NCBI RefSeq assembly: GCF_014196765.1
Contig: NZ_JACIEE010000007.1
Location: 62,001 to 126,000, forward strand
Direction: 5' to 3'
DNA: 64,000 nt
Source of the DNA: Mycoplana azooxidifex
GTDB taxonomy: Bacteria > Pseudomonadota > Alphaproteobacteria > Rhizobiales > Rhizobiaceae
The position numbers and the translations under genes were made by a program. Shown in pieces: positions 25,636-40,898 of this stretch. Every line of letters starts with the position of its first letter. Within the stretch, counting starts at the first letter, position 1. The notes under the pieces are model-generated. The model ran no database searches and was not told the DNA's origin. It saw only the letters and a program-made list of their open reading frames with translations.

Positions 25636-25691
25636 CATTTCCTCCCATGACGCGGCGGCCGCGACACCAGGCTTGTTTGTCGCGGCAACGC

Positions 25692-25838: not shown

Positions 25839-26675
25839 ATGTTCATCGACACCCACCTGCACCTGATCGACCAGTCGCGCCTGGCCTATCCCTGGCTTTC
25901 AGGCGCCGGCGACCTGAACCGCGATTTCACCTATCCCGAATATGCCCAGGAGGCGAAGCGCCTCGGCATCGAGGCGGCACTGCACATGGAGGTGGACGTG
26001 GCCACTTCGGACATCGAGGTCGAGACGGAGATGGTCCGCAGCCTCGCCGCCACGCAGGGGGACCTGATCGCCGGCGTCATCGCCGCCTGCCGGCCGGAGG
26101 AAATCGGCTTTGCGGCCTATCTGGAAAAGTGCGAGGCCGATCCTTTCGTGAAGGGCTTCCGGCGCGTTCTCCACGTGGTCCCCGACGACATTTCCGAACA
26201 GGCGCTGTTTCGCGACAATCTCAAGCGGATGGCCGGGAGCCGGCTGACCTTCGACATCTGCATGCTGGCCCGCCAGCAGCCGCTTGCGCTGGCGCTGATC
26301 GACAGCGCTCCGGGCGTCCGTTTCGTCCTCGACCATTGCGGTGTGCCCGATATCGTCTCCGGCGCACTCGACACTTGGAAGCGCGGGATCGTCGAGATCG
26401 CGCGACGGCCGAACGTCATTGCCAAGGTCTCCGGCGTCGTCGCCTATGCGGACCCGCAGAGCTGGACGGTCGAAACCATCCGCCCCTATGTCGAGCATAT
26501 CGTCTCGAGCTTCGGCTGGGATCGCGTGGTCTGGGGGAGCGACTGGCCGGTCTGCACGAAGGGCGGTGGTCTTTCCACCTGGGTGGCGGCGACCCAAGCC
26601 ATTTTCGGCCCGTGCTCGCAGGACGAACGGGAAAAACTCTACCGCGCCAACGCCAGGAGAACCTGGAACCTCTGA
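25839..26675 (+). CDS. amidohydrolase-2 family lactonase (L-fuconolactonase-like)
   Basis: 278 residues, a TIM-barrel amidohydrolase of the COG3618 type, with the metal-ligand HLH of MFIDTHLHLID at the N-terminus, FVLDHCGVPDI in the middle and VWGSDWPVC with the catalytic Asp near the C-terminus. GGGAGGA precedes the ATG. Divergence from an L-fuconate dehydratase gene makes hydrolysis of L-fucono-1,4(1,5)-lactone the likely reaction. A small stem (GAGGC-CAA-GCCTC) overlaps its stop codon. Confidence 0.82.
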   Translation: MFIDTHLHLIDQSRLAYPWLSGAGDLNRDFTYPEYAQEAKRLGIEAALHMEVDVATSDIEVETEMVRSLAATQGDLIAGVIAACRPEEIGFAAYLEKCEADPFVKGFRRVLHVVPDDISEQALFRDNLKRMAGSRLTFDICMLARQQPLALALIDSAPGVRFVLDHCGVPDIVSGALDTWKRGIVEIARRPNVIAKVSGVVAYADPQSWTVETIRPYVEHIVSSFGWDRVVWGSDWPVCTKGGGLSTWVAATQAIFGPCSQDEREKLYRANARRTWNL

Positions 26676-27150: not shown

Positions 27151-28338
27151 TCAGGAAACCGTCTTCGATATCCTGAACTTCCTCTTCTCGAGCTCGGGGA
27201 AGTAGGTCGAAGCGTCGAAATAGCTCTCCGGCGCATAGACCCCCGGCCTCTTCGCTTCCTTGAGGATCAGTTGCGCAGCGATCGAGGCGTTCATCGACGT
27301 GCAGGCGTCGACATAGGGCGCATACATCGGATCGGGCGAGACGACGACCTCCACGCGCACCGTGCAGGGCTTGCCGTCCTTGCGGCCCTGCCCGATGGCA
27401 AAATGGATCTCGTGGCTCTCCTGTGCCGGGATGCTGTCGGCGTTCTTCCTGATATTGCGTTCGATGACCTTGTTGAGCACGTCGAGCGGCTTGACGCTGA
27501 CGCCGCCGATCTCGATCGGCGCGTCAAAATCGCCAAACCCTGCCTTCACCAGGCCGACCCAGGCCTCGTGCTCGCGGTGCGGCAGGTGCAGCTTCCAAGA
27601 GAATTCCTTGATCCCCTTATCCCGGATACCGTCGGCAAGCGGAACCGTCAGTTGCTCGGAATGGGGCGAATGCATGAACTCGCAACGGCCCCACGGCTCC
27701 GGCAGCTCCAGGAACTCGCGCCCGCTCATCGGTGGGCATTCGACATGCCTGCCGCCATAGAACTGCGTGCTCGGATGAGCGTATTCCGCCAGCACCGTCG
27801 AAACGGAGTAGGGCGGAACCAGCACCGGGTTCTCCTCGCCCGCAAGCTCGGCCGCCCAGTAGAGATTGATCCTGTCGATCTCGTCCAGTTCGTCGGCAAC
27901 TGCCCTGCAGATCACGTTCGACATGCCGGGATCCGAACCGGCGCCGAGGACGGCGGTGACGCCGGCCGCCTTGAAGCGCTCGTGCTCGGCGATCTGCTTG
28001 ACCGTGTAGGTGCCGAGCCCGCCGAGATCCATGTAGGCAACCCTTGCAGCCAGCGCCGCCTCGAAGATCGTCATCTGGAAGCCCAGCAGCGTCGGCACGC
28101 AGTTGATGCAGATGTCGGCGCCGGAAATGGCTTGCGAAAGCGCTGCCGCATCGGTGACGTTCAGGTCGACGAGCTCGATGCGAGCATCGCCGAGCTCGGT
28201 CGCCAACGCCTCCATCTTTTCCCGCGACGCGTCGCACAGACGGATCTTCGCGATGTCGATGATGGCGCGGTCGGAAAGCAGGTCGCGGACAATGCCCGCG
28301 CCCATGTAGCCGGCGCCGCCGAGGATGGTGATGATCAT
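27151..28338 (-). CDS. saccharopine dehydrogenase-like NAD(P)-binding oxidoreductase
   Basis: 395 residues from the ATG at 28338 (MIITILGGAGYMGAGIVRDLL, Rossmann glycines). TAVLGAGSDPGMSN and SVKPLDVLNKVIERN resemble the saccharopine reductase/Lys9 and carboxyspermidine dehydrogenase group. These enzymes make or cleave secondary amines between an amino acid and an aldehyde or keto acid. Last gene of a long leftward series after an aldehyde dehydrogenase; the pair could split an opine-like secondary amine and oxidise the aldehyde released. That is inference, and the substrate is unknown. A mosaic repeat fills most of the gap to the upstream gene. Confidence 0.7.
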   Translation of the reverse strand: MIITILGGAGYMGAGIVRDLLSDRAIIDIAKIRLCDASREKMEALATELGDARIELVDLNVTDAAALSQAISGADICINCVPTLLGFQMTIFEAALAARVAYMDLGGLGTYTVKQIAEHERFKAAGVTAVLGAGSDPGMSNVICRAVADELDEIDRINLYWAAELAGEENPVLVPPYSVSTVLAEYAHPSTQFYGGRHVECPPMSGREFLELPEPWGRCEFMHSPHSEQLTVPLADGIRDKGIKEFSWKLHLPHREHEAWVGLVKAGFGDFDAPIEIGGVSVKPLDVLNKVIERNIRKNADSIPAQESHEIHFAIGQGRKDGKPCTVRVEVVVSPDPMYAPYVDACTSMNASIAAQLILKEAKRPGVYAPESYFDASTYFPELEKRKFRISKTVS

Positions 28339-28449
28339 GGTGCGTGTTCCTATGTCAGTTTGTTCAATCATTTCATCGCGACGGGCGGCCGCGACCTGCG
28401 GGATGCCCCATTTCTCGACGCCGAGTGGGGCAAGGCGGTGCCGCAGGTC

Positions 28450-28578
28450 TCTTCTCCCCGCCGGGGAGAAGTGCCGGAGCGAAGCGAGGCGATGAGGGGG
28501 CGGCTTGGGCACGCCCTTTGCGCTTCGCCCCCCTCATCCGGCCCTTCGGGCCACCTTCTCCCCGGTGGGGAGAAGGGA
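28450..28578. repeat. RIME/ABC-type intergenic mosaic repeat
   Basis: Two GC-rich palindromic modules of the kind common in rhizobial intergenic DNA: CTTCTCCCC...GGGGAGAAG at both ends with CGAAGCGAGGCGATGAGGGG and CCCCTCATCCGGCCCTTCGG between. It lies between the aldehyde dehydrogenase and the saccharopine-dehydrogenase-like gene. Confidence 0.8.
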
Positions 28579-28585
28579 CACCATT

Positions 28586-30091
28586 TCACACATGCTTGCG
28601 TCCCTCCGCCTCGTAGAACCACGCGTCCGGATAGGGATACCACCAGTCCTGGATGGCCGGCTTGTGGTCGATGATGACCATCTTGGAACGGCGGAATGCG
28701 TCCAGGCCGAGCCGGGAGAGCTCGCGGCCGAGGCCGGATTTCTTCCAGCCGCCGAAGGGGAGCGCGTCGTTGTCGATCAGCGGGTTGTTGACCCAGACCA
28801 TGCCCGCCTCCAGCCGGTCGGCAGCCTCCATCGCCTCTTCCAGCGAGGTGGTGAACACGGAGGCACCGAGGCCGAACTCGCTGTCGTTGGCCCGTTCGAT
28901 CGCCTCGTCGAAATCCTTCACTTTCATGATGGCGGCGACGGGGCCGAAGCATTCCTCCCGCATGACCGCCATGTCGGGCGTGCAGCCGGTCAGGATCGTC
29001 GGCTCGTAGAACCAGCCGACCGGCTCGTTCTCGGGGATCCGGCCGCCGATCACAACCGTTGCCCCCTTGGCCTTCGCATCGTCCACGAGCCGTATGACCT
29101 TGGCGCGCGCGGCCTCCGACACGAGCGGGCCGATCTCCGCCTTCGACAGGCCGTTGCCGATCCGCAGCCGCCTCGTCTGTGCGACGAACCGTTCCACGAA
29201 GGCGTCGTGCACGTCCTCGGCGACGAAAAAGCGCTCGGCCGAGGTGCAGACCTGGCCCGACATGTGGAACGCGGCCGTCACCGCACCGGCGGCGGCCACG
29301 TCGAGCGGTGCGTTGGCGGTGACGATCATCGGGTCCGATCCGCCCGCCTCGATCACCGCCGGCTTCATCTGGCCGGCCGCGGCCATCGCCACCGCCCTGC
29401 CGGCCGCGACCGAGCCGGTGAAGGCCACGGCATGCGTCTTCGGCGAGGCGACCAGCGCCTCTCCGAGCTCGACCCCGCCCGGCAGGCAGGCGACGAGACC
29501 GGCCGGCAGCGCCTCGAGCACGGCCATGAATTCGAGCGTAGAGAGCGTGGTCGCCGGCGCTGGCTTGATGATGCAGCCGTTGCCGGAGGCAAGCGACGCG
29601 GCGACCGTCCAGCACATCAAGAGAATCGGAAAGTTGAACGGCATGATGTGGACGCTCAGGCCCAGCGGTTCGTAGCGCGCATGTTGGAAGGAGCCTGCCT
29701 GCGTCGTGCCGGCAACCTTGCCCGCCTCGTCGCGCGCCATCTCGGCAAAGTAACGGAACGCCCCGGCGCAGTTGGCTACCTCGCCGATCGCCTCCGGATA
29801 GGGCTTTCCCATCTCCCGCGACATCAGCTCCGCACAGCGGCGCATGTCGGTCGCCTCGATCCGGTTGGCGATCCGGTGCAGCATCGTCGCCCGTGACTTG
29901 GCGTCGAGCCGCTTCCAGCCGCGCTGGGCAATGGTCGCCGCATCGAGCACCGCGTCCATCTCGTCGAGCGTGGTGTTCGCGAACCGGCCGACCTCGATCA
30001 GCCGCGCCGGATCGATCACCGGATGATGCGCACCACGCGCCGGCACATAGTCCGGATGCCGGTAGTAGACGGGTTCGGCGGGGTTGAACAT
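28586..30091 (-). CDS. aldehyde dehydrogenase
   Basis: 501 residues. Glu248 (VIEAGGSDP) and Cys282 (SGQVCTSAERF) are the catalytic pair, and PFNFPI is the cofactor-domain turn. The AGG in place of LGG after the glutamate, and the extended C-terminus (DWWYPYPDAWFYEAEGRKHV), set it apart from the other two aldehyde dehydrogenases here. It lies in the leftward operon after three cupin genes and before the saccharopine-dehydrogenase-like gene, so it probably oxidises an aldehyde made by that pathway. Confidence 0.85.
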   Translation of the reverse strand: MFNPAEPVYYRHPDYVPARGAHHPVIDPARLIEVGRFANTTLDEMDAVLDAATIAQRGWKRLDAKSRATMLHRIANRIEATDMRRCAELMSREMGKPYPEAIGEVANCAGAFRYFAEMARDEAGKVAGTTQAGSFQHARYEPLGLSVHIMPFNFPILLMCWTVAASLASGNGCIIKPAPATTLSTLEFMAVLEALPAGLVACLPGGVELGEALVASPKTHAVAFTGSVAAGRAVAMAAAGQMKPAVIEAGGSDPMIVTANAPLDVAAAGAVTAAFHMSGQVCTSAERFFVAEDVHDAFVERFVAQTRRLRIGNGLSKAEIGPLVSEAARAKVIRLVDDAKAKGATVVIGGRIPENEPVGWFYEPTILTGCTPDMAVMREECFGPVAAIMKVKDFDEAIERANDSEFGLGASVFTTSLEEAMEAADRLEAGMVWVNNPLIDNDALPFGGWKKSGLGRELSRLGLDAFRRSKMVIIDHKPAIQDWWYPYPDAWFYEAEGRKHV

Positions 30092-30135
30092 GGCTGTTGT
30101 CCTTCAATATGCAGCAGTAGACGGAGTGTGGCGGC

Positions 30136-30203
30136 GCCCCCTCACCCTGCCCTCTCCCCGGTGGGGAGAGGAGGGCCGGAGCGCAGCGAGGCGATGAGGG
30201 GGC
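30136..30203. repeat. RIME-type intergenic repeat
   Basis: CCCCCTCACCCTGCCCTCTC, then CCCGGTGGGG and GAGCGCAGCGAGGCGATGAG, the same modules as at 28450 and 31350. It lies between the third cupin gene and the aldehyde dehydrogenase and can fold into a stable hairpin. Confidence 0.8.
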
Positions 30204-30235
30204 GATACCCGCACCGCCCGACGGCGCCCCGCCCC

Positions 30236-30583
30236 TCACCGGATCATGTAAACCTTCTTGATGGTCTCATGGACGGTGCATTCGCCCTTCCAGTCCTTGG
30301 GGAAGAAGGCGGCCGTGTCGGGGGTGATCTCGATCACCTCGCCGCTCTCGTGCACGTAGGTGCTGCGGCCTTCCAGGAAATGACAGAACTCGTCGCGGGT
30401 GACGTGGCAGAACCATTTGCCCGGGGTGCAGACCCACAAGCCGCACTCCGACTGTCCGTCCGGTCCCTTGTGGATCAGCTTGCCGGAAACATGGCTCTCG
30501 CCCTCGATCATCGTCGGGATGACGCCCCAGTCGACGAGGTCCGTCTGTTCCAGCGGCTTCTTAAGAAACGGAGTGATCGGCAT
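30236..30583 (-). CDS. cupin-domain protein (DUF861/EutQ-like), copy 3 of 3
   Basis: 115 residues, a single small cupin barrel. The central strands read LWVCTPGKWFCHVTRDEFCHFLEGRSTYVHESGEVIEI, and the end is AFFPKDWKGECTVHETIKKVYMIR. It aligns along its length with the next two genes upstream, sharing VDWG at the start, SGKL, ECG-W-CTPG, DEFC-F and the FFP-W terminal strands. Such cupins bind a metal or small acid and can be isomerases, lyases or sensors; no reaction can be named. It is separated from the second copy by 21 bases. Confidence 0.7.
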   Translation of the reverse strand: MPITPFLKKPLEQTDLVDWGVIPTMIEGESHVSGKLIHKGPDGQSECGLWVCTPGKWFCHVTRDEFCHFLEGRSTYVHESGEVIEITPDTAAFFPKDWKGECTVHETIKKVYMIR

Positions 30584-30604
30584 GATGGTGCTTCCTTTTG
30601 ACTG

Positions 30605-30952
30605 TCAGTCGCCGCGGCTCATGAAGGCCTTGGTCAGTGTTTCCGTGATGATCGACCTGCCGGTCCAGCCGGCGGGAAAGAAGACGACGGCGCCGGCAAA
30701 GACCGGGATCTCCTCACCGCTCTCGTGGACATAGGCGCCCTTGCCGCCGAGAAAATAGCAGAACTCGTCGCTGGCGATCGTGATCTTGCGCGTGCCCGGC
30801 GTGCACGACCAGATGCCGCATTCGCTCGTGCCGTCCGCGTTGACGGAAAGCACCTTGCCGCTCATGTGCGGGCTGCCTTGCGTGGCCGTCGCACTCGGGC
30901 CCCAGTCCTCCAGCGCAACGGCCGCGGCATCCGCCCAATAGGGTGTGGTCAT
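30605..30952 (-). CDS. cupin-domain protein (DUF861/EutQ-like), copy 2 of 3
   Basis: 115 residues, paralogous to its neighbours on both sides: ALEDWGPSATATQGSPHMSG, SECGIWSCTPGTRKITIASDEFCYFLGGKGAYVHESGEEI, then VVFFPAGWTGRSIITETLTKAFM. The histidine of copies 1 and 3 in DEFCHF is Tyr here (DEFCYF). This suggests functional divergence, perhaps a loss of metal binding. The gaps to its neighbours are 21 and 9 bases, so all three are co-transcribed. Confidence 0.7.
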   Translation of the reverse strand: MTTPYWADAAAVALEDWGPSATATQGSPHMSGKVLSVNADGTSECGIWSCTPGTRKITIASDEFCYFLGGKGAYVHESGEEIPVFAGAVVFFPAGWTGRSIITETLTKAFMSRGD

Positions 30953-30961
30953 CGTCTCACC

Positions 30962-31324
30962 TCAAACCAGCATGTAGATGTTGCGCATCGTCTCGATGAC
31001 GGTGCATTCGCCGCTCCAGCCGCCCGGGAACATCACGACGGTGCCCGCCTCGACCTCGATCACCTCGCCGTCGTCGGAGCGGTAGACCGCCCTTCCCGCA
31101 ACGAAATGACAGAATTCGTCGCGCGGGATCGACAGCCGCCAACGGCCGGGCGTGCAGACCCAGATGCCGCTTTCCGGCTGGTTGCCCGGCCCCTTGAACA
31201 CAAGCCGGCCCGAGGAATGGGACTGGCCCTCGACGCTGTCGGGCTGGCTGCCCCAGTCGACGAGGTCGGCAAACGTGGTCGCGCCGTGGATGTGGGGGGC
31301 GGAGGAATTGGTGGTGTCGGTCAT
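30962..31324 (-). CDS. cupin-domain protein (DUF861/EutQ-like), copy 1 of 3
   Basis: 120 residues, first of three tandem paralogues in transcription order. FADLVDWGSQPDSVEGQSHSSG leads into ESGIWVCTPGRWRLSIPRDEFCHFVAGRAVYRSDDGEVIEV and ends VVMFPGGWSGECTVIETMRNIYML. The N-terminus is about nine residues longer than in the other two. Retained His in DEFCHF. It follows the first glycosyltransferase-like gene, with a mosaic repeat of about 130 bases between. Confidence 0.7.
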   Translation of the reverse strand: MTDTTNSSAPHIHGATTFADLVDWGSQPDSVEGQSHSSGRLVFKGPGNQPESGIWVCTPGRWRLSIPRDEFCHFVAGRAVYRSDDGEVIEVEAGTVVMFPGGWSGECTVIETMRNIYMLV

Positions 31325-31349
31325 AATTTCGATCCTCCTGCCCGGGACG

Positions 31350-31480
31350 CCCCCTCATCCGGCCCTTCGGGCCACCTTCTCCCAGCTGGGGAGAAGAGGG
31401 AGATGCCCGCGATGTTTCCGGCCTCCTCTCCCCAGCGGGGAGAGGTCCGCCGAGCAAAGCGGAGGCGGGGTGAGGGGGTT
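31350..31480. repeat. RIME/ABC-type intergenic mosaic repeat
   Basis: Two modules: CCCCTCATCCGGCCCTTCGG followed by CCACCTTCTCCC and GGGGAGAAG, then CCTCTCCCCAGCGGGGAGAG and AGCAAAGCGGAGGCGGGGTG. It lies between the glycosyltransferase and first cupin genes. Confidence 0.8.
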
Positions 31481-31483
31481 TTC

Positions 31484-32776
31484 TCAACCATTGAACGCCC
31501 CCGTCCTCACCAGTTCGTCCAGGATGCCTGCCGCCTTCTTCGGGCCGTTGCGCGCCTGCATGTGGGCGCTGGTAGCGGCGAGTTTCGTCTTCATGGTCGG
31601 ATTGTTGACACAGGCTTCGAGCTTGGCTGCGAGGTCGGCATCGGTCCAGTCGTAGCGCGGCATCTTGAAGCCGTGGCCGGTCTCGTCGACGCGGGTGGCG
31701 TTGTCGTGGCCGTCCCAGACATAGGGCATGATGATCGCCGGCTTGCCGAAATAGAGGCACTCGGTGAACGAGTTATTGCCGCCGTGATGGATGACGGCGT
31801 CCACCTGCGGGATGACAGAGGGCTGCGGGAACCAGCTGTCGACGATGACGTTGCCCGGCAGGTTCTCGTACTGGTCCTTGTAGTCGCCGACATTGACGAG
31901 CGCCCGATAGGGCAGCTTGCCGATCGTCTCGATCAGCCGCTTCAGAAGGTCCGTGTCCCCTGCGCCCAGCGAGCCGAAGGAGACGTAGAGCAGCGGCTTG
32001 TCGTTGTTGGTCGCAAAGGCGGGCACCTCGTAGGGCTTCTCCTTGCGCACGCAGCCTTCGAGATATTGGAACTGCGCCGGCGCCAGCGGGTGCTCGCGCT
32101 CGAACTTCACCGGCTCCGGATAGAGCAGCAGGTTCATGAACGGCGAGGCCTCGAAGAACTGGCCGATCGGATAGACCTCTTCGCCGTTCTCAGACAGGAA
32201 CCCGTTGAAATCGTCATGGATCGGCTTGATCACCGCGTTGAACCGATCGCGGTAAGCCTGGTGGCCCGCATAGTCCTTCTCGCCGCAGCCGGAAAGATGC
32301 GGCGGGATCTTCGGGTCCTCGATCTCGTTTTCCGAGCACGAGATGATCCGCACCCAGGGCGTGCCGAACTGCTTGATCGCGGGGAACAGGATGACGTTGT
32401 CGACGCAGATCAGGTCCGGCTTGATCCTGGCCAGCACGCCGGGCAGGTCCTTCTGCGCCCACTTGGCGCTATCGACGATCGCCGTCCAGCAATCCTTGAC
32501 GTAGTTGTCGACCTGGTCGATCGGGGATTTGCGGAAGTTCGGAATATGGCCGTTGATGAAATCTTCCCAGAACTTCGCCATCTGCTCGGCCGGCATCGGT
32601 TCGGAGAGGTTCACCGGATGCGCCTCGAAGCCATAGCCCTCGTAGACCGAGACAAAGCCCGGATCAGAGAGGAACACGGCCTTGTGGCCGAGCGCCTCGA
32701 CGGCCTGGGCGATGCCGACCGAGTTCAGCGCCGGCCCGAAGGCTGCTTCCGGAAAGAATGCGATGGTCTTGGACAT
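31484..32776 (-). CDS. GT1-type glycosyltransferase-like protein, paralogue A
   Basis: 430 residues, a two-domain GT-B fold. The N-terminal half begins IAFFPEAAFGPALNSVGIAQ. The C-terminal nucleotide-sugar half has LLYVSFGSLGAG, VDSWFPQPSVIPQVDAVIHH, GGNNSFTECLYFGKPAIIMP and WDGHDNATR, equivalent to the donor-binding region of UDP-glycosyltransferases. Such enzymes add a sugar to small molecules in the cytoplasm. In a catabolic operon it could glycosylate a toxic intermediate or run in reverse. A clear paralogue (38067-39362) lies on the other arm of the locus. The substrate is unknown. Confidence 0.75.
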   Translation of the reverse strand: MSKTIAFFPEAAFGPALNSVGIAQAVEALGHKAVFLSDPGFVSVYEGYGFEAHPVNLSEPMPAEQMAKFWEDFINGHIPNFRKSPIDQVDNYVKDCWTAIVDSAKWAQKDLPGVLARIKPDLICVDNVILFPAIKQFGTPWVRIISCSENEIEDPKIPPHLSGCGEKDYAGHQAYRDRFNAVIKPIHDDFNGFLSENGEEVYPIGQFFEASPFMNLLLYPEPVKFEREHPLAPAQFQYLEGCVRKEKPYEVPAFATNNDKPLLYVSFGSLGAGDTDLLKRLIETIGKLPYRALVNVGDYKDQYENLPGNVIVDSWFPQPSVIPQVDAVIHHGGNNSFTECLYFGKPAIIMPYVWDGHDNATRVDETGHGFKMPRYDWTDADLAAKLEACVNNPTMKTKLAATSAHMQARNGPKKAAGILDELVRTGAFNG

Positions 32777-32823
32777 GCTGTTCCCCTGTTATCTGGTCTT
32801 CATGGTGTGGCGCATAGGCCGCT

Positions 32824-32934
32824 GCCCCTCATCCGGCTGCCGCCACCTTCTCCCCGCGAGCGGGGAGAAGGGACTTGCCGCACCGTTTCTGTTCCCTCTC
32901 CCCGCCTGCGGGGAGAGGGTTAGGGTGAGGGGCA
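32824..32934. repeat. RIME/ABC-type intergenic mosaic repeat
   Basis: GCCCCTCATCCGGCTGCCGC, CACCTTCTCCCCGCGAGCGG and, after a short spacer, CCCTCTCCCCGCCTGCGGGG. It sits between the ABC ATPase gene and glycosyltransferase A, the point where the transport half of the leftward series meets the metabolic half. Confidence 0.8.
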
Positions 32935-32961
32935 ATCGCTGAAACGAGACGCGCAAACCGT

Positions 32962-34029
32962 TCACGCCGCACCTCTCGCAAACAGTCGGCAACGGGCCGG
33001 GTCGATCTTGAGGCTGAGCGCTTCACCGGTCCGATAGGCGGTCTCGCCGCTGGCCGGCACGCGCACCTGCAGGGGCGCATGCGAAGCGGCGGTCTGCACA
33101 TGAAGCACCCGGTCGAGGCCGTGATAGGCGATGTCGGCGACCGTTCCGGAAAGCCGCTCGCCGGGCGGGCCGATGGCGACATTTTCCGGCCGCACCGCAA
33201 GCGTCGCCGGCCCCGGCTTCGCATCGACCAGCGCCAGCCTCAGGCCCTCCGCCTCGAAGACGCCGTCCGACACCGTGCCGTCGATGAAGTTCATCACGCC
33301 GATGAAATTGGCAACGAAGCGGTCGGCGGGCGCCTCGTAGATGTCCTCGGGCGAGCCGCACTGGAGCAGCCTGCCATCCTTCAGGATCGCCATGCGGTCG
33401 GCCATGACCAGGGCTTCCTCCTGGTCGTGCGTGACGATGATGAAGGTGATGCCCGCCTCGTGTTGCATGCGCTTCAATTCGAGCTGCATCTTCTCGCGCA
33501 GCTTCTTGTCGAGCGCGCCGAGCGGTTCGTCCAGCAACAGCACCTTCGGCCGCTTGACCAGCGCACGCGCGAGCGCCACGCGCTGCTTCTGTCCGCCGGA
33601 GAGCTGGTCGGGCTTGCGGTCGGCAAAGGCGGTGAGATCGGTCATTGCCAGCGTCTCGTCGACCCGTCGGCGAACTTCGGTTTTTGCCAGCCGCTCCATC
33701 TCCAGCCCGTAGGACAGGTTCTGGCGAACCGACATGTGCGGAAAGAGCGCGTAGGATTGGAACATCAGGTTGAGCGGCCGCTTCTCCGGCGGCAGCGGCG
33801 AGATGTCCTTGCCGTCCAGCAGGATCCGGCCGGCGCTCGGCGTCTCGAAGCCCGCCAGCATCCGCAGCAGCGTGGTCTTGCCGCAGCCCGAGGGGCCGAG
33901 CAGCGCGAAGAACTCGTTCTCGCGCACGTCGATCGAGATGCCATCGACGGCGACCACCGGGCCAAAGCTCTTGGCAACGCTCTCGATCCGAAGGATGGGG
34001 GGAGTCTCTGCGTCCATCGGGGCGTTCAT
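32962..34029 (-). CDS. polyamine/opine-type ABC transporter ATP-binding protein (PotA-like)
   Basis: 355 residues. The ATPase has Walker A (GPSGCGKTT), the Q-loop FQSYALFPHMSV, signature LSGGQKQRVALARAL, Walker B VLLLDEPLGALDKKLR and the switch His in VTHDQEEA. After residue about 240 comes a regulatory TOBE domain (LAVRPENVAIG). This architecture is that of PotA-like importers for spermidine, putrescine, iron or mannopine-type opines. Its ATG overlaps the end of the upstream permease gene by 4 bases. Confidence 0.9.
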   Translation of the reverse strand: MNAPMDAETPPILRIESVAKSFGPVVAVDGISIDVRENEFFALLGPSGCGKTTLLRMLAGFETPSAGRILLDGKDISPLPPEKRPLNLMFQSYALFPHMSVRQNLSYGLEMERLAKTEVRRRVDETLAMTDLTAFADRKPDQLSGGQKQRVALARALVKRPKVLLLDEPLGALDKKLREKMQLELKRMQHEAGITFIIVTHDQEEALVMADRMAILKDGRLLQCGSPEDIYEAPADRFVANFIGVMNFIDGTVSDGVFEAEGLRLALVDAKPGPATLAVRPENVAIGPPGERLSGTVADIAYHGLDRVLHVQTAASHAPLQVRVPASGETAYRTGEALSLKIDPARCRLFARGAA

Positions 34030-34874
34030 CGGACCTGTTCTTTGTTGAGCCATTGCGAGATCATCAGGGCGGTGGCGCTCACACCCATGACGATGGTGGC
34101 GAGCGCATTGACCTCGGGCGTGATGCCGAAGCGGATCATCGAATAGATCTGCATCGGCAGGGTGATCGACGAGCGGCCGGCGCCTGCGGTGAAGAAGGCG
34201 ATGATGAATTCGTCCACCGACAGCGTGAAGGCGAGCAGCGCGCCAGCGACGATCGCCGGTAGCAGCACCGGGAAGGTGATGCGCCAGAAGGTCGTCCAGC
34301 CGGACGCGCCGAGATCGCGCGAGGCTTCCACGATCGAATAGTCGAAATTCTTCAGCCTTGCCCGCACCACCGAGCAGACGAAGGCGAGGTCGAAGACCAC
34401 GTGGCTGACGACGATCGTGTGCAGCCCCATCGTCAGGTTCAGCCGCGAGAACAGCGACAGCAGCGCCACGGCAAGCACGATGTCGGGAATCACCATCGGC
34501 GCGAAGGCCAACGCCTCCAGACCGTTGCTCTTGCGCCGCCGTGTCTCCATGCCAAGCGCCAGAAGCGTGCCGAGCACGGTGGAGATCAGCGTGGCGAAGA
34601 CGGCGACGACCAGCGTGTTCCAGGCCGCGCGCAGGATATCGCCGTTGCCGGCCAGCGCGACATACCAGCGGGTGGAAAAGCCCGACCACGAGGTCGGCAG
34701 GCCGCTGTCGTTGAAGGACAGAAGCACGAGGACGGCGATCGGCAGATAGAGGAAGCCGAAGACGACAAGCAGCACGATCCGACCCGGGAGCTTGCGGCGG
34801 AACGCGCCCGGCACCGCAGCGCCGACCGCCGGTGGCGCGGCCGTCATCGCGTCGATTGTCGCCTGTCCGCTCAT
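34026..34874 (-). CDS. polyamine/opine-type ABC transporter permease (PotC-like)
   Basis: 282 residues, about six membrane helices, with the EAA loop IVEASRDLGASGWTTFWRITFPVLLPAIVAG. The position second after the PotB-like gene matches PotC. It overlaps both neighbours by 4 bases (ATGA-type junctions), so the three transport genes are translationally coupled. Membrane component of the importer; the substrate is set by the binding protein encoded at 35852-36910. Confidence 0.88.
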   Translation of the reverse strand: MSGQATIDAMTAAPPAVGAAVPGAFRRKLPGRIVLLVVFGFLYLPIAVLVLLSFNDSGLPTSWSGFSTRWYVALAGNGDILRAAWNTLVVAVFATLISTVLGTLLALGMETRRRKSNGLEALAFAPMVIPDIVLAVALLSLFSRLNLTMGLHTIVVSHVVFDLAFVCSVVRARLKNFDYSIVEASRDLGASGWTTFWRITFPVLLPAIVAGALLAFTLSVDEFIIAFFTAGAGRSSITLPMQIYSMIRFGITPEVNALATIVMGVSATALMISQWLNKEQVR

Positions 34875-35734
34875 GCCGCCTCTCCCCTGCGCTCGCCGCT
34901 GGCATGCGAGGTGGCGCGCGCCTGGACGAGGAGAAGCACGATCATCGTGGCGATCAGCGCCATGCCCAGCGCTGCGCCGAACGGCCAGTCGTTGGCGGTG
35001 AGGAACTGGTCATAGACAAGGTTGCCGACCATCTGGAAGCGGCCGCCGCCGAGCAACGCCGGCGTGACGAAGTTGCCGATCGACAGCACGAAGACGAACA
35101 CGCCGCCGGCGGCAACCCCCGGCAGGGTCAGGGGCAGCGTCACGCGGAAGAAGGTGCGGATCGGACCGGCGCCAAGATCGCGCGAGGCCTCCATCAGTTC
35201 CGGGTTCAACCGCGACAGCGTCGAATAGATCGCCAGGATCACGAAGGGCAGATAGTTGTAGACCAGGCCGATGATGACGGCGCTCTCCGTATAGAGCAGC
35301 GACAGGGGCTCGCCGGTGTAGCCCATGGCCCGCAGCAGGTTGTTGATCAGGCCCTCCCGGTTCAGGAGCACGATCCAGGCATAGGTCCGGATCAGGTAGT
35401 TGCTCCAGAACGGCAGCACGGCGAAGAACAGGAGGATCGGCTGGCGCATGCGCGGCGCCCGCGCGATCGCATAGGCGGCCGGATAGGCGATCAGGATCGC
35501 AATCAGCGTTGTCGTCAACGCGATCCGGGCGGAATTCAGGAAGATCCTCGCATAGAGCGGATCGGCAACGCGGGCGAAGTTCTCCAGCGTGAACGTATAG
35601 TCGATCCCGCCCCACGTGCCGCGCTGGAAGAAGGCATACGAAAGCACCAGCAGGCACGGCACGACCATGAAGGCCATGAGCCAGGCGACGCCGGGGGCGG
35701 CGAGCAGGTTCGGTCTGGTGGCATTGAAGGACAC
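34871..35734 (-). CDS. polyamine/opine-type ABC transporter permease (PotB-like)
   Basis: 287 residues with about six helices and the EAA loop LMEASRDLGAGPIRTFFRVTLPLTLPGVAAG. The best start is a GTG at 35734 (MSFNATRPNLLAAPGVAWL), since the next ATG falls inside the first helix. It partners the PotC-like permease. The gap to the upstream binding-protein gene contains a short RIME remnant at 35815. Confidence 0.87.
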   Translation of the reverse strand: MSFNATRPNLLAAPGVAWLMAFMVVPCLLVLSYAFFQRGTWGGIDYTFTLENFARVADPLYARIFLNSARIALTTTLIAILIAYPAAYAIARAPRMRQPILLFFAVLPFWSNYLIRTYAWIVLLNREGLINNLLRAMGYTGEPLSLLYTESAVIIGLVYNYLPFVILAIYSTLSRLNPELMEASRDLGAGPIRTFFRVTLPLTLPGVAAGGVFVFVLSIGNFVTPALLGGGRFQMVGNLVYDQFLTANDWPFGAALGMALIATMIVLLLVQARATSHASGERRGEAA

Positions 35735-35814
35735 GTCTAATTCGGCCTTGCTGCTGTCTGGAGAGAAGGCGACGCTGCCGCGCCGGCTCGGTCGACGGAG
35801 GCTGCCGGCGGCGG

Positions 35815-35842
35815 CCCCTCTCCCCGCTTGCAGGGAGAGGGG
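35815..35842. repeat. short RIME-type palindrome
   Basis: CCCCTCTCCCCGCTTGCAGG followed by GAGAGGGG: one hairpin module of the same repeat family, just after the binding-protein gene. Such structures after a binding-protein gene often stabilise its mRNA, which would raise its level over the permeases. Confidence 0.7.
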
Positions 35843-35851
35843 CGAAGACGG

Positions 35852-36910
35852 CTAGTTCGCGGCCTTGATCTCGCTGACGGCACGCGAATAGTCCTTCTGC
35901 GCCGGGCCGAGGTCGCGCAGAAGCTCGTATTTGGCAAGTTCGGCCGGCGGCATCTTCATGTTCGGGTACTGCTCGCCGAGCGCGGCCGGCAGGCTTTCCA
36001 TGGCGGCCTTGTTTGGCACCTTGTAGAGAATGTTCTCCGCTGCCCAGGCGTGGTTCTTCGCATCCAGGATGAAGTCGATGAACTTCATCGCGTTCGCCTT
36101 GTTCTCCGAACCCTTCAGGACGACCATCGTGTCGACCCAGAGGTCGGAACCTTCCTTCGGCACGACGAACTTGATGTCCTTGTTCTCGGCGATGCCGTAG
36201 TTGCACCAGCCGTCCCAGGCATGCACCAGCGACGCCTCGCCGGAGACGAGCTTGGCATAGAAGGTCGTGTCGTCATAGGCGAGCAGCGTCTTCTTCGCCT
36301 CGATCAGCAGGTCTCGGGCCTCGTTGATCTTGGCCGGATCGGCCTCGTTGACGGAAGATCCCTTGGCGAGAAGGCCTGCGGCCATCAGCCAGCGGTCGGT
36401 CGCCAGCATGGTCGTCTTGCCCTTGATGTCGTCGGCGGGCTGAAGCAGGCTCATCCAGCTGTCGGGCGTGCCGCTGACCTTGTCCGAGCGGTAGCAAAGG
36501 CCGGTCGTGCCCCAGGTGTAGGGGACCGAGTACGCATTGCCCGGATCGTAGGCGAGCGCTGCGGCTTCCGGATAAAGATTGGCGAGGTTGGGAATCGCGG
36601 CCTTGTCCAGCGGTTCGACCAGGCCCTGCGCGTTCAGGACTTCTGCAAACGGCGAGGAGACGAAGACGATGTCGTAGCCCTTGCCACCGCTCGCCATGAG
36701 CTTGCCCATGATCTCTTCGTTGGTCGCGTGGTTGACCACCTCGATCTCCAGGCCGGTCGCCGCCTTGAAGCTCTCGGCGATGTCCTTCGCCATGTAGCCG
36801 TCCCAGTTGGAGATGACGAGGTCCGCGGCCGATGCCGTCCCCGCGGTCAGGCTTGCGGCAATGACAGCCGCGGCCGCGCGCAATGCGCCCGTTCCGTTTC
36901 TCGCTTTCAC
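35852..36910 (-). CDS. polyamine/opine-type ABC transporter substrate-binding protein (PotD/PotF-like)
   Basis: 352 residues. The start is a GTG 7 bases after GGGAG and gives a signal peptide (AAAAVIAASLTAGTASA). The mature protein begins ADLVISNWDGYMAKDI and carries YDIVFVSSPFAEVLNAQGL, YSVPYTWGTTGLCYRSDKV and DTMVVLKGSENKANAMKFIDF, all usual in the PotD/PotF class. It captures a cationic or opine-like solute in the periplasm. It is the first gene of the leftward series of ten, divergent from the GntR regulator. Confidence 0.88.
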   Translation of the reverse strand: MKARNGTGALRAAAAVIAASLTAGTASAADLVISNWDGYMAKDIAESFKAATGLEIEVVNHATNEEIMGKLMASGGKGYDIVFVSSPFAEVLNAQGLVEPLDKAAIPNLANLYPEAAALAYDPGNAYSVPYTWGTTGLCYRSDKVSGTPDSWMSLLQPADDIKGKTTMLATDRWLMAAGLLAKGSSVNEADPAKINEARDLLIEAKKTLLAYDDTTFYAKLVSGEASLVHAWDGWCNYGIAENKDIKFVVPKEGSDLWVDTMVVLKGSENKANAMKFIDFILDAKNHAWAAENILYKVPNKAAMESLPAALGEQYPNMKMPPAELAKYELLRDLGPAQKDYSRAVSEIKAAN

Positions 36911-37128
36911 GAAAAAACTCCCTTGTTTGATTTGTTCCTGGCCTCTGTGATGCAGCCCGCCGGTTGATCCGAACTCTTTGCCGCGTCTCTTGGCAGTATT
37001 AATTATAAAATAAATACGTCAATAGGGATTCGGCTGAAATCGCCGCGTGCAGAAATTCGTCGTTGCGAGGCTTGCGAAACGGCGGCGCAACGGGCAGCAT
37101 GCGCGGCAATGGAGGCCCGTTTGAGCGC
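36911..37128. promoter_or_regulatory. divergent control region of the two-armed catabolic locus
   Basis: 218 bases between the binding-protein gene and the GntR gene. An AT-rich island (about 36995-37025) contains, on the minus strand, TTGACG followed by TATAAT- and TAATAC-like -10 candidates, though none has an ideal spacing (9 and 15 bases). The rest shows GC-rich 5' leader. The GntR product probably binds here. Confidence 0.45.
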
Positions 37129-38061
37129 ATGATTCCGGAACCGAAGCGCCCCAGCTATCGCCATGTCGAACTGGCGCAAAAAATACTGGATATCGCCGGC
37201 GAACGCGGAATTTCGCCGGGCGACCGGCTGGCCGAACAGGCGCTGGCGTCTCTCTGCAACGTCTCCAGAACCCCAATCCGCAAGGCGCTTCAAGTGCTTG
37301 CCGAGCGCGGCCTGGTCACGACCGAGGCCGAAGGCGGCTATCTGCTCGCCGTCGACCCCGCAGCAACAGCAAGGCTCGACGATACCTCGGACGGCGATGG
37401 CGAAAGCGAGATCCATGCGGCGATCCTGCGCGACCTCGCCGCTGGCCGCATTGCCGAGACGCAGACGGTCGCCTCGCTCCAGCGCCGATACCAGGTCTCG
37501 CGGCAGACGGTACAAAATGCGCTGATGAAACTGGCGGAAGAGAACGTCGCCGAACGCGGCGCGGGGCAGCAGTGGCTGCTGAAGCAGTTTGCCGTCAGCG
37601 GCGATGCGGTCGCGCGCAGCTACGAATTCCGCCTTGCGACCGAACCGCTCGCGCTCACCCTTCCCGACTTCCGCCGCGACCTGCCGGCGCTGGTCGCACT
37701 GCGCCAGTCGATGCTGATCCTGAAGGGCATGAGCGAGGCGACCTTCGATCGCAAGCTGTTCGAGCGCACCGATTTCGACTTCCATACGCTGATCGCGAAG
37801 GGCTGCAGCAACCCGTTCATGGCCGAGGCCCTGGTGAACCATCATCGCCGTCGCCGCGCGATCCCGCCTGCGGGCCATGTCGCGGTGTTCCGTCTGATGC
37901 AGTCCAATCTGGAGCACCTGCAGATCGTCGAGCAGATCGAGCGCGGGCAGATGGAGCTTGCGGCCGATCTCATGCGGGTCCACCTGCAGCTTTCCCGCCA
38001 GCAGCGGCCCCGGCTCGCCGGCCGCGGCGTGCCGCCCGCCTTCAAACTCGTGTCGCGTTGA
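37129..38061 (+). CDS. GntR-family regulator with two winged-helix domains and an FCD-like C-terminus
   Basis: 310 residues from the ATG at 37129; ATGs at 37063 and 37099 are alternatives and none has a perfect ribosome binding site. Residues about 8-70 form one winged helix (GDRLAEQALASLCNVSRTPIRKALQVL). Residues about 85-145 form another (IHAAILRDLAAGRI; LQRRYQVSRQTVQNALMKLAEEN). The remainder is alpha-helical and resembles an FCD ligand domain (FDFHTLIAKGCSNPFMAEAL). Normal FCD regulators have one winged helix. The likely role is ligand-relieved control of both arms of this locus. Confidence 0.78.
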   Translation: MIPEPKRPSYRHVELAQKILDIAGERGISPGDRLAEQALASLCNVSRTPIRKALQVLAERGLVTTEAEGGYLLAVDPAATARLDDTSDGDGESEIHAAILRDLAAGRIAETQTVASLQRRYQVSRQTVQNALMKLAEENVAERGAGQQWLLKQFAVSGDAVARSYEFRLATEPLALTLPDFRRDLPALVALRQSMLILKGMSEATFDRKLFERTDFDFHTLIAKGCSNPFMAEALVNHHRRRRAIPPAGHVAVFRLMQSNLEHLQIVEQIERGQMELAADLMRVHLQLSRQQRPRLAGRGVPPAFKLVSR

Positions 38062-38066
38062 ACCCC

Positions 38067-39362
38067 ATGGCAGCGCCGAGCACGATAGCCCTCTTTCCCG
38101 AAGCGAGTTTCGGCGCGGCGCTGAATTGCGTGGGCATCGCCCAGGAACTGCGGCGGCTCGGCGCGCGACCGGTGTTTATCTGTCATCCGGGTTTCTCCGG
38201 CGTTTTTTCCGAGTGCGGCTTTCCCGAATACCAGCTCGCCGACGACGCCTCCGGGCCGCCGACCGACTGGAACGATTTCATCGAGCGCCACCAGGACGCT
38301 TTCCGGCAGTCCCCGTTCGAACAGCTGGAAAGCTATGTCGGCCCGACTTGGGACGCGATCGTGGACACGGCGATCCGTGTCGAGGAGCCGTTACGCCAGT
38401 TGCTTTCGCGGCTGAAGCCGGATGCGATCGTGCTCGACAACGTCGTCATGTTCCCGGCGATCGCCAATGCCGGCGTGCCGTGGATCCGCGTCGTTTCCTG
38501 CGCGGAGACGGAAGTGCCGGACGAAAACGTGCCGCCCTATCTCTCCGGCTGCGGCGGGTCGCCGGGCCCCGGCTGGCAGAAATTCGAGAGAGCCTACGAG
38601 CGGGTTACGGGGCCGGCCTATCGGCGCTTTTCCGCCTTCCTCGCCGAGTGCGGGTTGAAACCGCCGGAGACCTCGAATTTTCTCTCCGCCTCGCCGTGGC
38701 TGAACCTGCTGCTGGCGCCGGAGATCATTCGCCACCGGCGGCAGGCCCCGCTCGACCCGCAGACGTTCGTCTTTCTCGACGGATGCGTGCGCCACGAGGC
38801 GCCCTATGAGCCGCCGCGGTTTGCCAGCCACAACGACGCGCCACTGGTGCTGACGAGCTTCGGCTCGCTCGGGGCAATGGACGTAGTGATGATGACGCGA
38901 ATGATCGAGGTGTTTTCCACCCTGCCCTGCCGCTTCCTCGTCAATGCCGGCCACTGGCGCGACGCGTACCGCGAGGTGCCGGACAACGTCTTCATCGACA
39001 GCTGGTTTCCCCAGCCCTCGGTCGTCGCGCAGGCGAGCCTGTTCATCCATCACGGCGGCAACAACTCCTTTTGCGAGGCCCTCTATTTCGGCGTGCCCTC
39101 GCTCGTCATGCCCTACTGCTGGGACGGGCACGACAACGCCACCCGCGCGACTGAGGCCGGCGTCGGCCGGAAACTCGATCGCTACGGCTGGAGCGACGGC
39201 GGGCTCGCCGCCGCCATCACCGATCTCGTCGCCGACAAGGCGATGGCGGGACGATTGAAGGCCAATGCTAAGACGATGCAGGCGGCGGCCGGTGCGACCC
39301 GGGCCGCAGAGGAGATCCTGAAGGTGGCGGGGGCCCCGTCCATCGGGGCGCGGGCATCCTGA
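38067..39362 (+). CDS. GT1-type glycosyltransferase-like protein, paralogue B
   Basis: 431 residues from the ATG at 38067, 5 bases after the GntR stop; a TTG at 38058 is possible. It is a full-length paralogue of the protein encoded at 31484-32776: IALFPEASFGAALNCVGIAQ, DAIVLDNVVMFPAI, PYLSGCGG, LTSFGSLGAMD, IDSWFPQPSVVAQASLFIHH, GGNNSFCEALYFGVPSLVMP and WDGHDNATRA. Coupling to the regulator gene and to an aldehyde dehydrogenase places it in the same process as the leftward genes. The two copies may glycosylate different intermediates or form a heterodimer. Confidence 0.75.
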   Translation: MAAPSTIALFPEASFGAALNCVGIAQELRRLGARPVFICHPGFSGVFSECGFPEYQLADDASGPPTDWNDFIERHQDAFRQSPFEQLESYVGPTWDAIVDTAIRVEEPLRQLLSRLKPDAIVLDNVVMFPAIANAGVPWIRVVSCAETEVPDENVPPYLSGCGGSPGPGWQKFERAYERVTGPAYRRFSAFLAECGLKPPETSNFLSASPWLNLLLAPEIIRHRRQAPLDPQTFVFLDGCVRHEAPYEPPRFASHNDAPLVLTSFGSLGAMDVVMMTRMIEVFSTLPCRFLVNAGHWRDAYREVPDNVFIDSWFPQPSVVAQASLFIHHGGNNSFCEALYFGVPSLVMPYCWDGHDNATRATEAGVGRKLDRYGWSDGGLAAAITDLVADKAMAGRLKANAKTMQAAAGATRAAEEILKVAGAPSIGARAS

Positions 39363-39419
39363 CCGGGAAGGTGGCGCCGGCACCGGCGCAAGACGGAACA
39401 AACGCAGGTGGGAACGAGC

Positions 39420-40898
39420 ATGCGCGACAAGCTTTTCATCGACGGACAATGGGCTGCCCCTGCCGAGGGCGGGACCTTCCCGGTCATCGACCCGGCAACG
39501 GAAGAGACGATCTTCCAGGCGCCGGCCGGCACAGCCCGGGACATAGACCACGCGGTCCGAGCCGCCCGCCACGCCTTTGATCACGGCCCCTGGCCGAGGC
39601 TCTCCGGCAAGGAGCGCGCCGGCTGCCTGCGCCGCATCGCCGACATCATCCTGGCCCGCAAGGAAGAGCTCGCCCGTCTGGAAGTGCGCGACAACGGCAA
39701 GCCGCTGCCGGAGGCGATCTGGGACATGGAGGACACCGCCGGCTGCTTCAATTTCTATGCGGGACTGGCCGAGGAGATGGACGAGCATCCCGAAGAGACG
39801 ATCGTGCTCACCGAACCGCGCTTCTCGTCGAAGGTGGTGCGGGAGCCGGTCGGCGTCGCCGGCGCCATCATTCCGTGGAACTATCCCCTGCTGATGGCGT
39901 CGTGGAAGGTGGCGCCAGCGCTCGCCGCAGGCTGCACCATGGTGCTCAAGCCCTCGGAACTGACGCCGCTGACCGCGCTGGAGCTGGGCGCGATCGTCGA
40001 AGAGGCCGGCCTGCCGGCAGGCGTGCTCAACATCGTCACCGGCCTCGGCGCCGATGCCGGCCAGCCGCTCTCCGAGCATTCCGGCGTCGACAAGCTCGCC
40101 TTCACCGGCTCCGTGCCGACGGGCGCGAAGATCATGGCGGCGGCGGCGCGCGACATCAAGAACATCAGCCTGGAGCTCGGCGGCAAGTCGCCCTTCGTCG
40201 TCTTCGCCGACAGCGATATCGACAAGGCCGTCGAATGGATCATGTTCGGCATCTTCTGGAACCAGGGCCAGGTCTGCTCGGCGACCTCGCGCGTGCTGGT
40301 CGAGGAGAGCCTCTATCCGGCGCTGCTCGAGCGGCTCGTCGAAGAAGCGGCAAGAATCAGGATCGGCAACGGGCTTGCTGACGGTACGTTGCTCGGGCCG
40401 CTGGTATCGAAGGGACAATATGACAAGGTGCTGGCAGCGATCGAGCGCGGCAGGCAGGAGGGCGCGACCATTGCCGGCGGCGGCAAGCGTCCGGCCGGGC
40501 TGAACACCGGCTATTTCCTCGAGCCGACGATCCTGACCGACATGGCCGAGGACAGCTTCGTCTGGAAGGAAGAGATCTTCGGCCCCGTCGTCTGCGTGAA
40601 GCCGTTCCGCGACGAGGAAGACGCGATCCGCATGGCCAACAACAGCCGCTTCGGGCTTGCGGCTGCGGTCATGTCGAAGGACCGTGTCAGATGCGAGCGC
40701 GTCGCCCGGGCCTTCCGCGCCGGGATCGTCTGGATCAACTGCTCGCAGCCGACCTTCACCGAGGCCCCGTGGGGCGGCTACAAGCAGTCCGGCATCGGCC
40801 GCGAGCTCGGCCGCTGGGGTCTCGCGAACTATCTGGAGACGAAGCAGATCACCGCGTTTGAGAGCGACGAGCCCTGGGGCTGGTACATCAAGAACTGA
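39420..40898 (+). CDS. aldehyde dehydrogenase (betaine-aldehyde/aminoaldehyde type)
   Basis: 492 residues from the ATG at 39420, with GGTGGGA 5 bases before; an in-frame GTG at 39408 is less likely. Catalytic Cys286 lies in NQGQVCSATSRVLVEE, with the glutamate in LELGGK and PWNYPL at the cofactor turn. The motif set fits aminoaldehyde and betaine-aldehyde dehydrogenases, in keeping with the polyamine-type importer and the amine-linked enzymes of the opposite arm. It is the last gene of the rightward arm. Confidence 0.87.
   Translation: MRDKLFIDGQWAAPAEGGTFPVIDPATEETIFQAPAGTARDIDHAVRAARHAFDHGPWPRLSGKERAGCLRRIADIILARKEELARLEVRDNGKPLPEAIWDMEDTAGCFNFYAGLAEEMDEHPEETIVLTEPRFSSKVVREPVGVAGAIIPWNYPLLMASWKVAPALAAGCTMVLKPSELTPLTALELGAIVEEAGLPAGVLNIVTGLGADAGQPLSEHSGVDKLAFTGSVPTGAKIMAAAARDIKNISLELGGKSPFVVFADSDIDKAVEWIMFGIFWNQGQVCSATSRVLVEESLYPALLERLVEEAARIRIGNGLADGTLLGPLVSKGQYDKVLAAIERGRQEGATIAGGGKRPAGLNTGYFLEPTILTDMAEDSFVWKEEIFGPVVCVKPFRDEEDAIRMANNSRFGLAAAVMSKDRVRCERVARAFRAGIVWINCSQPTFTEAPWGGYKQSGIGRELGRWGLANYLETKQITAFESDEPWGWYIKN

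Follow-up and report, generated by a model that had tools for sequence, protein, structure and literature searches.

Positions 27151 to 40898 of a 64,000-nt stretch of Mycoplana azooxidifex DNA (contig NZ_JACIEE010000007.1, positions 62,001 to 126,000; hereafter the window) hold a locus of 13 genes in two divergent arms, which is best explained, with a probability of roughly 0.4, as a self-contained regulon that takes up and oxidatively degrades a polyamine-type amine, in which two proteins of glycosyltransferase family 1 (GT1) type would drive N-glycosylation and cupins would remove the sugar. The 13 genes and their two divergent arms had been proposed in an earlier note made from the sequence alone, and both were confirmed at about the same positions from the open reading frame (ORF) listing coupled with Pfam and NCBIfam scans of the window. 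Ten genes run leftward (outward from the divergent region, potD, potB, potC, potA, GT1-A, cupC, cupB, cupA, ALDH1 and SDH) and three rightward (the gene for a GntR-FCD regulator, GT1-B and ALDH2). They are listed here by window position; starts given as "about" were read off translations by eye.

27151 to about 28338, minus strand: SDH, a Sacchrp_dh_NADP/Sacchrp_dh_C protein resembling carboxyspermidine dehydrogenase (CASDH); Pfam 64.5 and 46.3 bits, on the longer ORF 27151-28512.
28586 to 30091, minus strand: ALDH1, aldehyde dehydrogenase of the core set; Pfam Aldedh 479 bits.
30236 to 30583, minus strand: cupA, Cupin_3 protein (EutQ-like); Pfam 58.4 bits.
30605 to 30952, minus strand: cupB, Cupin_3 protein, an extra copy; Pfam 50.2 bits.
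30962 to 31324, minus strand: cupC, Cupin_3 protein; Pfam 54.2 bits.
31484 to 32776, minus strand: GT1-A, His-less GT1-like protein (Pro15); Pfam EryCIII-like_C and UDPGT.
32962 to about 34029, minus strand: potA, ABC ATPase with TOBE_2; Pfam, on ORF 32962-34905.
34026 to 34874, minus strand: potC, permease; BPD_transp_1 56.6 bits.
34871 to 35734, minus strand: potB, permease; BPD_transp_1 50.6 bits.
35852 to 36910, minus strand: potD, periplasmic polyamine-type binding protein; SBP_bac_8 115 bits.
36996 to 37017, minus strand: 22-bp dyad of conserved pattern, operator candidate, GTATTTATTTTATAATTAATAC.
37017 to 37022, minus strand: TTGACG, a -35-like box abutting the dyad, putative left-arm promoter.
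About 37129 to 38061, plus strand: GntR-FCD regulator; Pfam GntR (two stretches) and FCD, on ORF 37063-38061.
About 38067 to 39362, plus strand: GT1-B, His-less GT1-like protein (Ala15), paralogue of GT1-A.
39408 (or about 39420) to 40898, plus strand: ALDH2, aldehyde dehydrogenase of the aminoaldehyde/betaine-aldehyde type; Pfam Aldedh 580 bits.

Conservation of this arrangement was assessed by a contig scan for relatives of the GT1 pair. At least 563 were found, of which the best 80 were kept as loci, so that locus counts are biased; gene content was scored by tblastn with the proteins of the window, and the 63 loci with 9 kb or more ahead of GT1-A and 5 kb or more behind it were taken as full. 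The genes potD, potB, potC, potA, GT1-A, cupC, cupA, ALDH1, GntR and GT1-B are all present in 60 of these 63, the exceptions (L042, L052, and L074) being without GT1-B and without locus-type pot genes. Separate placement of the arms in relatives, which would have refuted the earlier note, was thus checked, and both arms stand together in 60 of the 63. The co-occurrence of the GT1 pair, cupins and PotD that the note proposed to look for was found with respect to cupC and cupA; its cupin triplet, however, is a local feature, cupB occurring in 27 of the 63. In all 78 loci having both genes, near relatives together with fetched ones, potD and GntR are divergent. Relatives of the GT1 proteins were also sought in sampled genomes, with thresholds of 1e-60 (family and phylum samples) and 1e-25 (class and f44 samples), only part of the first-look candidates being scored in most genomes. 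They were found in 28/247 genomes of the window's family, 13/385 of its class and 8/398 of its phylum (own genome counted in each), as well as in 18/198 of another family, f44 (own genome not among these), which we take to be Pseudomonas-like from its ETF proteins. Among the 46 GT-positive genomes of the window's family and f44 (own included), the GT pair lies on one contig, divergent and 4.97-5.49 kb apart, in 44; the other two, G426 and G980, have one GT each. The locus is real and its arrangement far beyond chance, given the core kept in 60/63, the divergence in 78/78 and the co-placed GT pairs in 44/46. Moreover, every listed GT match is stronger than 1e-165 at these thresholds, save two pieces of one split gene in the f44 sample, which suggests that the GT1 relatives form a discrete family. 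No publication on the locus was found in open-licence PMC full text.

The intergenic region between the arms carries the consensus TTGAC-GTAYTTTTTTnnnnAATARTAC, compared in 79 such regions (78 loci and the window). Its strict form was found in 65 of the 79 and nowhere else in 1.81 Mb of loci scanned. This form misses the window's own site, which is included in consensus scoring, and by that measure 74/79 regions reach at least 19/27; those below are L050, L096, L097, L098, and L111. The 22-bp core is an imperfect dyad. Of the 74 sequences, 41 have T-A at its pair 4/19 and 29 have C-G, a two-sided change that preserves symmetry, albeit one common to related sequences; pairs 6/17 and 10/13 are not symmetric. 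With up to three mismatches the core matches once per genome in five of five whole genomes, always between the two GT genes of the locus, and a reversed-pattern control gave zero matches in those five. The copy in the window (36996-37017, minus strand) stands about 85 bases before potD. Because the dyad occurs in 74/79 regions with a single match per genome in 5/5, both arms probably form one regulon, in keeping with the single divergent import-and-catabolism unit for a cationic substrate postulated before. The dyad is a candidate for a dedicated GntR operator overlapping the left-arm promoter and, from its position only, likely also controls the right arm. The two-winged-helix regulator of the earlier note was borne out by Pfam, which recognized two GntR-type winged helix-turn-helix stretches followed by FCD.

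A binding protein, two permeases and a PotA ATPase are all encoded at the locus by Pfam and NCBIfam, and potA (32962-34065) scored 361 bits with TIGR01187 potA, above the cut-off of 355.6. The nearest solved relatives of PotD in the PDB are Lmo0810 (E 4e-43), PotD (1e-35), and PotF (2e-33), compared with 2.4e-11 for the agropine permease 6hly. An opine system, toward which the earlier note leaned, was consequently dropped as first choice; PotD and the CASDH-type SDH point to polyamine enzymes. The pocket was compared in 84 aligned PotD sequences, window included, using what we take to be the ligand residues of E. coli PotD. Seven of these positions are kept, the equivalents of W34, Y37, S83, W229, D257, and Y293 in 84/84 and that of W255 in 83/84, T35, Y85, D168, and E171 are replaced, and Asp is found at the equivalents of 169 and 230. 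Since the pocket is altered alike in all 84, PotD likely binds one conserved cationic ligand that is not simply spermidine. As substrate class, a polyamine fits best, given the importer, the CASDH-like dehydrogenase, the ALDHs, the glutamine-synthetase (GS)-like protein and FAD oxidase of Mesorhizobium, and the PuuR-like regulators and amine oxidases of other loci. Uptake and oxidation of an amine is well supported.

With SDH, the best PDB matches (4ina, 8deb, and 4rl6) are weak (E 3e-13 to 4e-7). The structure 8deb was deposited as a carboxyspermidine dehydrogenase, and it has been argued that 4INA and 4RL6 likewise belong to the CASDH enzymes (PMC10413350). SDH scored 32.8 bits against a cut-off of 800 bits for NF043000 (carboxynorspermidine/carboxyspermidine dehydrogenase); no saccharopine dehydrogenase model was matched in the NCBIfam scan of SDH, and its Pfam matches are domain-level only. 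A true saccharopine (lysine) pathway was rejected, the nearest solved relatives being of CASDH type. At E <= 1e-20, SDH gave one match each, at the locus, in the four of seven genomes having it. Loci of Mesorhizobium type have, after GT1-B, a ligase of the GS family and an FAD oxidase of the DAO family (read in L043; detected in the others by tblastn), such that a glutamate-amine-ligase-like protein and an FAD oxidase replace SDH and ALDH2. Within the 63 full loci, SDH is found at 28, the GS-like gene at 26, both at none and neither at nine; the DAO-family oxidase is found at 24. The GS-like protein of L043 scored 188 bits against the GGputSyn cut-off of 650. The SDH or GS label tracks the GT1-A tree of 96 rows yet needs 13 changes (nine for the SDH type, four for the GS type), with L050 being of SDH type within a clade otherwise of GS type or neither ("neither" includes incomplete loci); hence the exclusivity follows the tree in large part and does not reflect dozens of independent events. 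A PuuR-like regulator is found together with an FAD oxidase in four further loci (L099, L105, L108, and L110), three of which also encode a flavin amine oxidase. Elsewhere in the window, a GS-family gene (21115-22458) that is 35% identical to the Mesorhizobium locus ligase is placed after an aminotransferase-like gene, approximately 5 kb off the left arm. Of the two aldehyde dehydrogenases, ALDH1 is below the cut-off in all 25 NCBIfam models shown, and ALDH2 reached 562 bits with the BADH model, below its cut-off of 668.6.

The model of GT1-A (pLDDT 89.9) has the GT-B fold, with a Foldseek TM of 0.89 to 7mco, and the closest profile match of the protein is UGT203A2 of spider mites (E 1e-63); GT1-A and GT1-B share 47% identity. 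Residues were compared in an alignment of 162 sequences of at least 80% coverage, window included (85 GT1-A and 77 GT1-B), and in a distant set of 21 sequences from 16 loci (L096-L111), seven of which overlap with the 162. The His of UGT203A2 and OleI, which we take to be catalytic, aligns to position 15 of GT1-A/B, where Pro is found in 85/85 GT1-A, Ala in 77/77 GT1-B, and Pro or Ala in all 21 distant sequences. The UDP site is kept: W315, P317-Q318, H331, N335-S336, E339, and D355 form the donor side and are invariant in the 162, and the distant set shows one W315 to F and two H330 to Q replacements. Invariant in both sets are H331, N335, S336, and E339, together with E10, N18, D126 (the dyad Asp), R143, E149, E151, and D154. 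At the position of the D-Q of the mite proteins, a pair presumed to be a sugar contact in GT1s, all 162 have D355-G356. The two GTs of the window scored 104 and 122 bits with the NCBIfam MGT model against a cut-off of 260. The GT1-like identity given in the earlier note thus stands for the fold and the donor motifs; it does not extend to the catalytic His, the D-Q pair or the MGT score, and the loss of the His had been missed. An early stop was found in one of the 162 (L024 GT1-A, residue 92) and in none of 23 in the distant set; seven more stop only at 419-429, the natural end, and the L083 GT flagged with TGA stops at residue 423 of 424. Pseudogenes were rejected on these grounds, as was an ordinary macrolide-type O-glycosyltransferase, the His being absent and the scores far below the MGT cut-off. 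The mite UGTs (7lvy and 6pnt are the nearest solved) reportedly reached the animals from bacteria; UGT203A2 retains the His that is absent from the present family, so that the donor side may lie in a bacterial sister group that still has the His.

As the catalytic His is missing in both GTs and in the relatives checked, ordinary O-glycosylation should not be assumed. N-glycosylation of an amine would be the first choice for GT1-A/B, given the amine genes around them, the conserved acidic residues and the lack of a base. A parallel is reported from plants, where GT1s that carry Cys instead of the His favour N-glycosylation, and restoration of the His shifts them to O (PMC12246196). The likeness of GT1-A/B to these plant N-glucosyltransferases is suggestive, not proof.

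All three cupins (50-58 bits) pass the Pfam Cupin_3 cut-off of 23.5 bits, and a Cupin_2 search of the window's own genome gave no match at the three genes, so the cupin assignment of the earlier note holds in the Cupin_3 (EutQ-like) sense and not in that of Cupin_2. For the cupA model (pLDDT 95.9), the nearest folds are DUF861, of unknown function, and EutQ, with PpnP and then cupin-type phosphoglucose isomerases further down. PpnP is a phosphorylase that splits N-glycosidic bonds, and a cupin cleaving N-glycosylamines would have its precedent in fold only. A lone cupin gene next to a single GT is seen in some distant loci, and in L102 (4566-5318) two Cupin_3-type domains are fused in one gene beside GT1-A, which suggests joint action of cupC and cupA. 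In nine of the 96 loci (L014, L035, L038, L042, L050, L096-L098, and L111), cupA and ALDH1 flank an AmgK-like kinase gene, and L111 has an NTP-transferase-domain gene after ALDH1. The two kinases scanned (L042 and L096) are below the NCBIfam AmgK cut-offs. AmgK relatives are common (273/349 genomes); the locus copy is one of two matches in each of G058, G062, and G146. The kinase fits sugar recycling, but most loci are without it.

Taken together, a pathway may be proposed in which PotD, with its conserved altered pocket, would bind the cationic amine and PotBCA would import it. GT1-A and GT1-B would then transfer sugar from a nucleotide-sugar onto an amino group, as PuuA adds glutamate, and the N-linked sugar would let the other end of the amine go to the aldehyde and then the acid without cyclising. 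ALDH1 (and ALDH2) would oxidize aldehydes, and the CASDH-like SDH would form or break a secondary amine, steps for which the Mesorhizobium variant would use its glutamate-amine-ligase-like protein and FAD oxidase instead of SDH and ALDH2. The N-glycoside would be split or rearranged by the cupins, and in loci that have the AmgK-like kinase this enzyme would recycle the sugar as its 1-phosphate. With regard to the sense and ligand of regulation, we infer that GntR, acting via the one 22-bp operator, would turn the unit on with the substrate present. The stricter version of this scheme, glycosyl-protected polyamine catabolism proper, in which the GT1s add a removable protecting sugar, the amine is oxidized to an acid, the cupins cleave the N-glycoside and the kinase, in loci that have it, returns the sugar 1-phosphate, is doubtful; no description of such a pathway was found in open-licence PMC full text.

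Several observations weigh against N-glycosylation of a polyamine. Loss of the His alone is no proof of N-glycosylation, and with the D-Q of the mite GT1s being D-G in GT1-A/B, donor use is uncertain. In the text of the plant study, replacement of the Cys or Asp by Ala lowered N- and raised O-glycosylation, whereas a figure legend groups C20A with the wild type as favouring N (PMC12246196). Position D168 of PotD is T, and E171 is W, in 84/84 sequences; the active-site H228-E229-E230 of BfCASDH found no identical counterparts in the SDH alignment; no PuuD-like amide hydrolase was recognized among the genes read; and no biochemistry on any locus member was found in open-licence PMC full text. 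A GT and a cupin occur without Pot genes in L100, L102, L103, and L104 (contigs or stretches of 7.8-14 kb), and L106 and L107 have a cupin and two GTs next to dehydrogenases of OYE type, recognized by Pfam in the former and by look in the latter; L106 also has a GcvT-like protein and ALDH1. Polyamine is therefore not the sole context of the GT-cupin pair, which has a wider use.

These observations bear on three other explanations. The two GTs could be pseudo-enzymes that bind UDP-sugar, or catalyse other chemistry, and regulate or scaffold the ALDH and cupin steps of an ordinary polyamine pathway. The absent His and the D-G pair would agree with this, as would the active-site loop 12-15 of the GT1-A model, which is its sole stretch of at least three residues with a pLDDT under 50. 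The invariance of E10, N18, D126, E149, E151, H331, and E339 on both domains, which holds down to about 51% identity, however, goes beyond the apparent needs of a scaffold, and L042, L052, L074, and several distant loci have GT1-A but no GT1-B, so that GT1-A is more than just a heterodimer partner; this explanation is considered unlikely. Decidedly unlikely is the deglycosylation option of the earlier note, the import of an amine glycoside (a glycated amine, or an aminoglycoside-like or opine-like conjugate), to be deglycosylated by GT1-A/B or the cupins, with phosphorylation of the sugar by the AmgK-like kinase and oxidation of the aglycone. The nine loci with the kinase and the uniformly altered PotD pocket would suit such a substrate, but most of the 96 loci have no kinase, no glycoside hydrolase was recognized among the genes read, and the agropine permease is a far weaker match to PotD than are the polyamine binders. 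A GT and cupin forming a unit that in general detoxifies reactive aminoaldehydes or glycation products, recruited to several amine-oxidizing operons and performing no pathway step, would account for their occurrence without transporters in L100, L102 (the fused double cupin), L103, and L104, and for the other amine-type contexts of L106 and L107. It is very unlikely given that in 60/63 full loci the GTs reside inside the two-armed unit, adjoining the transporter and the regulator, respectively.

If amine N-glycosylation followed by cupin sugar removal is the correct explanation, a strictly conserved, His-less branch of the GT1 fold, whose enzymes are best known for O-glycosylating drugs and plant compounds, works in the amine catabolism of soil bacteria, and the neighbouring Cupin_3 proteins gain a testable function. 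Sugar would then be a further mode of masking amines beside gamma-glutamylation and acylation, and its use as a protecting group would be categorically new. Compact, and with an operator candidate of its own, the locus is found in culturable rhizobia.

Some details of the locus and its surroundings may be added. The tight spacing described in the earlier note was accompanied by a claim of several ATGA overlaps; two, potB/potC (34871-34874) and potC/potA (34026-34029), were verified from the coordinates, and "several" were not. The listed ORF of SDH (to 28512) opens within a dispersed repeat, which accounts for the overlong frame, and the protein start is more likely near 28338 than at 28512. 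GC-rich dispersed repeats lie in left-arm spacers at 28463-28575, 30135-30204, 31350-31396, and 32824-32870. Beyond the left arm, genes for FMN-dependent hydroxy-acid dehydrogenase-like, fuconate-dehydratase-like, and Amidohydro_2 proteins (23149-26675) look like a separate sugar-acid locus; three of the 80 loci, many of them incomplete, show these genes next to the left arm, namely L003, L013, and L004, the last lacking the first gene. A CHASE2 cyclase gene is found near GT1-A in L100 and L105 (Pfam) and in L099 and L110 (by look), from two different families, and L100 also has a CRP-like gene.

The locus is a variant of amine catabolic loci. With the gamma-glutamylated putrescine (Puu) pathway (PuuA/B/C/D, PuuR) it has amine uptake and an ALDH in common, to which the Mesorhizobium version adds the GS-like ligase and FAD oxidase and four distant loci (L099, L105, L108, and L110) the PuuR-like regulator. 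The window locus differs in having neither a PuuA-type ligase nor a PuuB-type FAD oxidase, PuuD was not recognized, the regulator is GntR-FCD, and there is in addition a pair of GT1-like proteins with two or three cupins. The gene set of PotABCD is the same, with the aromatic positions and the D257 equivalent kept, whereas the locus PotD has T and W for D168 and E171 (of what we take to be the ligand residues) and Asp at the 169 and 230 equivalents. GT1-A/B share the whole GT-B fold, the W-PQ, HGGNNS, and E donor motifs and the dyad Asp with the spider-mite enzymes UGT203A2 (7mco/7lvy) and UGT202A2, from which they differ by Pro or Ala for His, D-G for D-Q and added invariant acidic residues. 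CASDH (8deb, 4ina, and 4rl6) provides the nearest solved relatives of SDH, yet the match is weak and far below the NF043000 cut-off. The Cupin_3 domain and fold are common to the locus cupins, EutQ/DUF861 and PpnP, but identity to the solved cupins is only about 10-26% and the nearest of them (3bcw) is of unknown function. Finally, the plant UGT76C cytokinin N-glucosyltransferases, with their Cys-Asp dyad, are likewise GT1s without the catalytic His that prefer nitrogen acceptors, and differ in being plant enzymes with Cys rather than Pro or Ala and purines as acceptors (PMC12246196).

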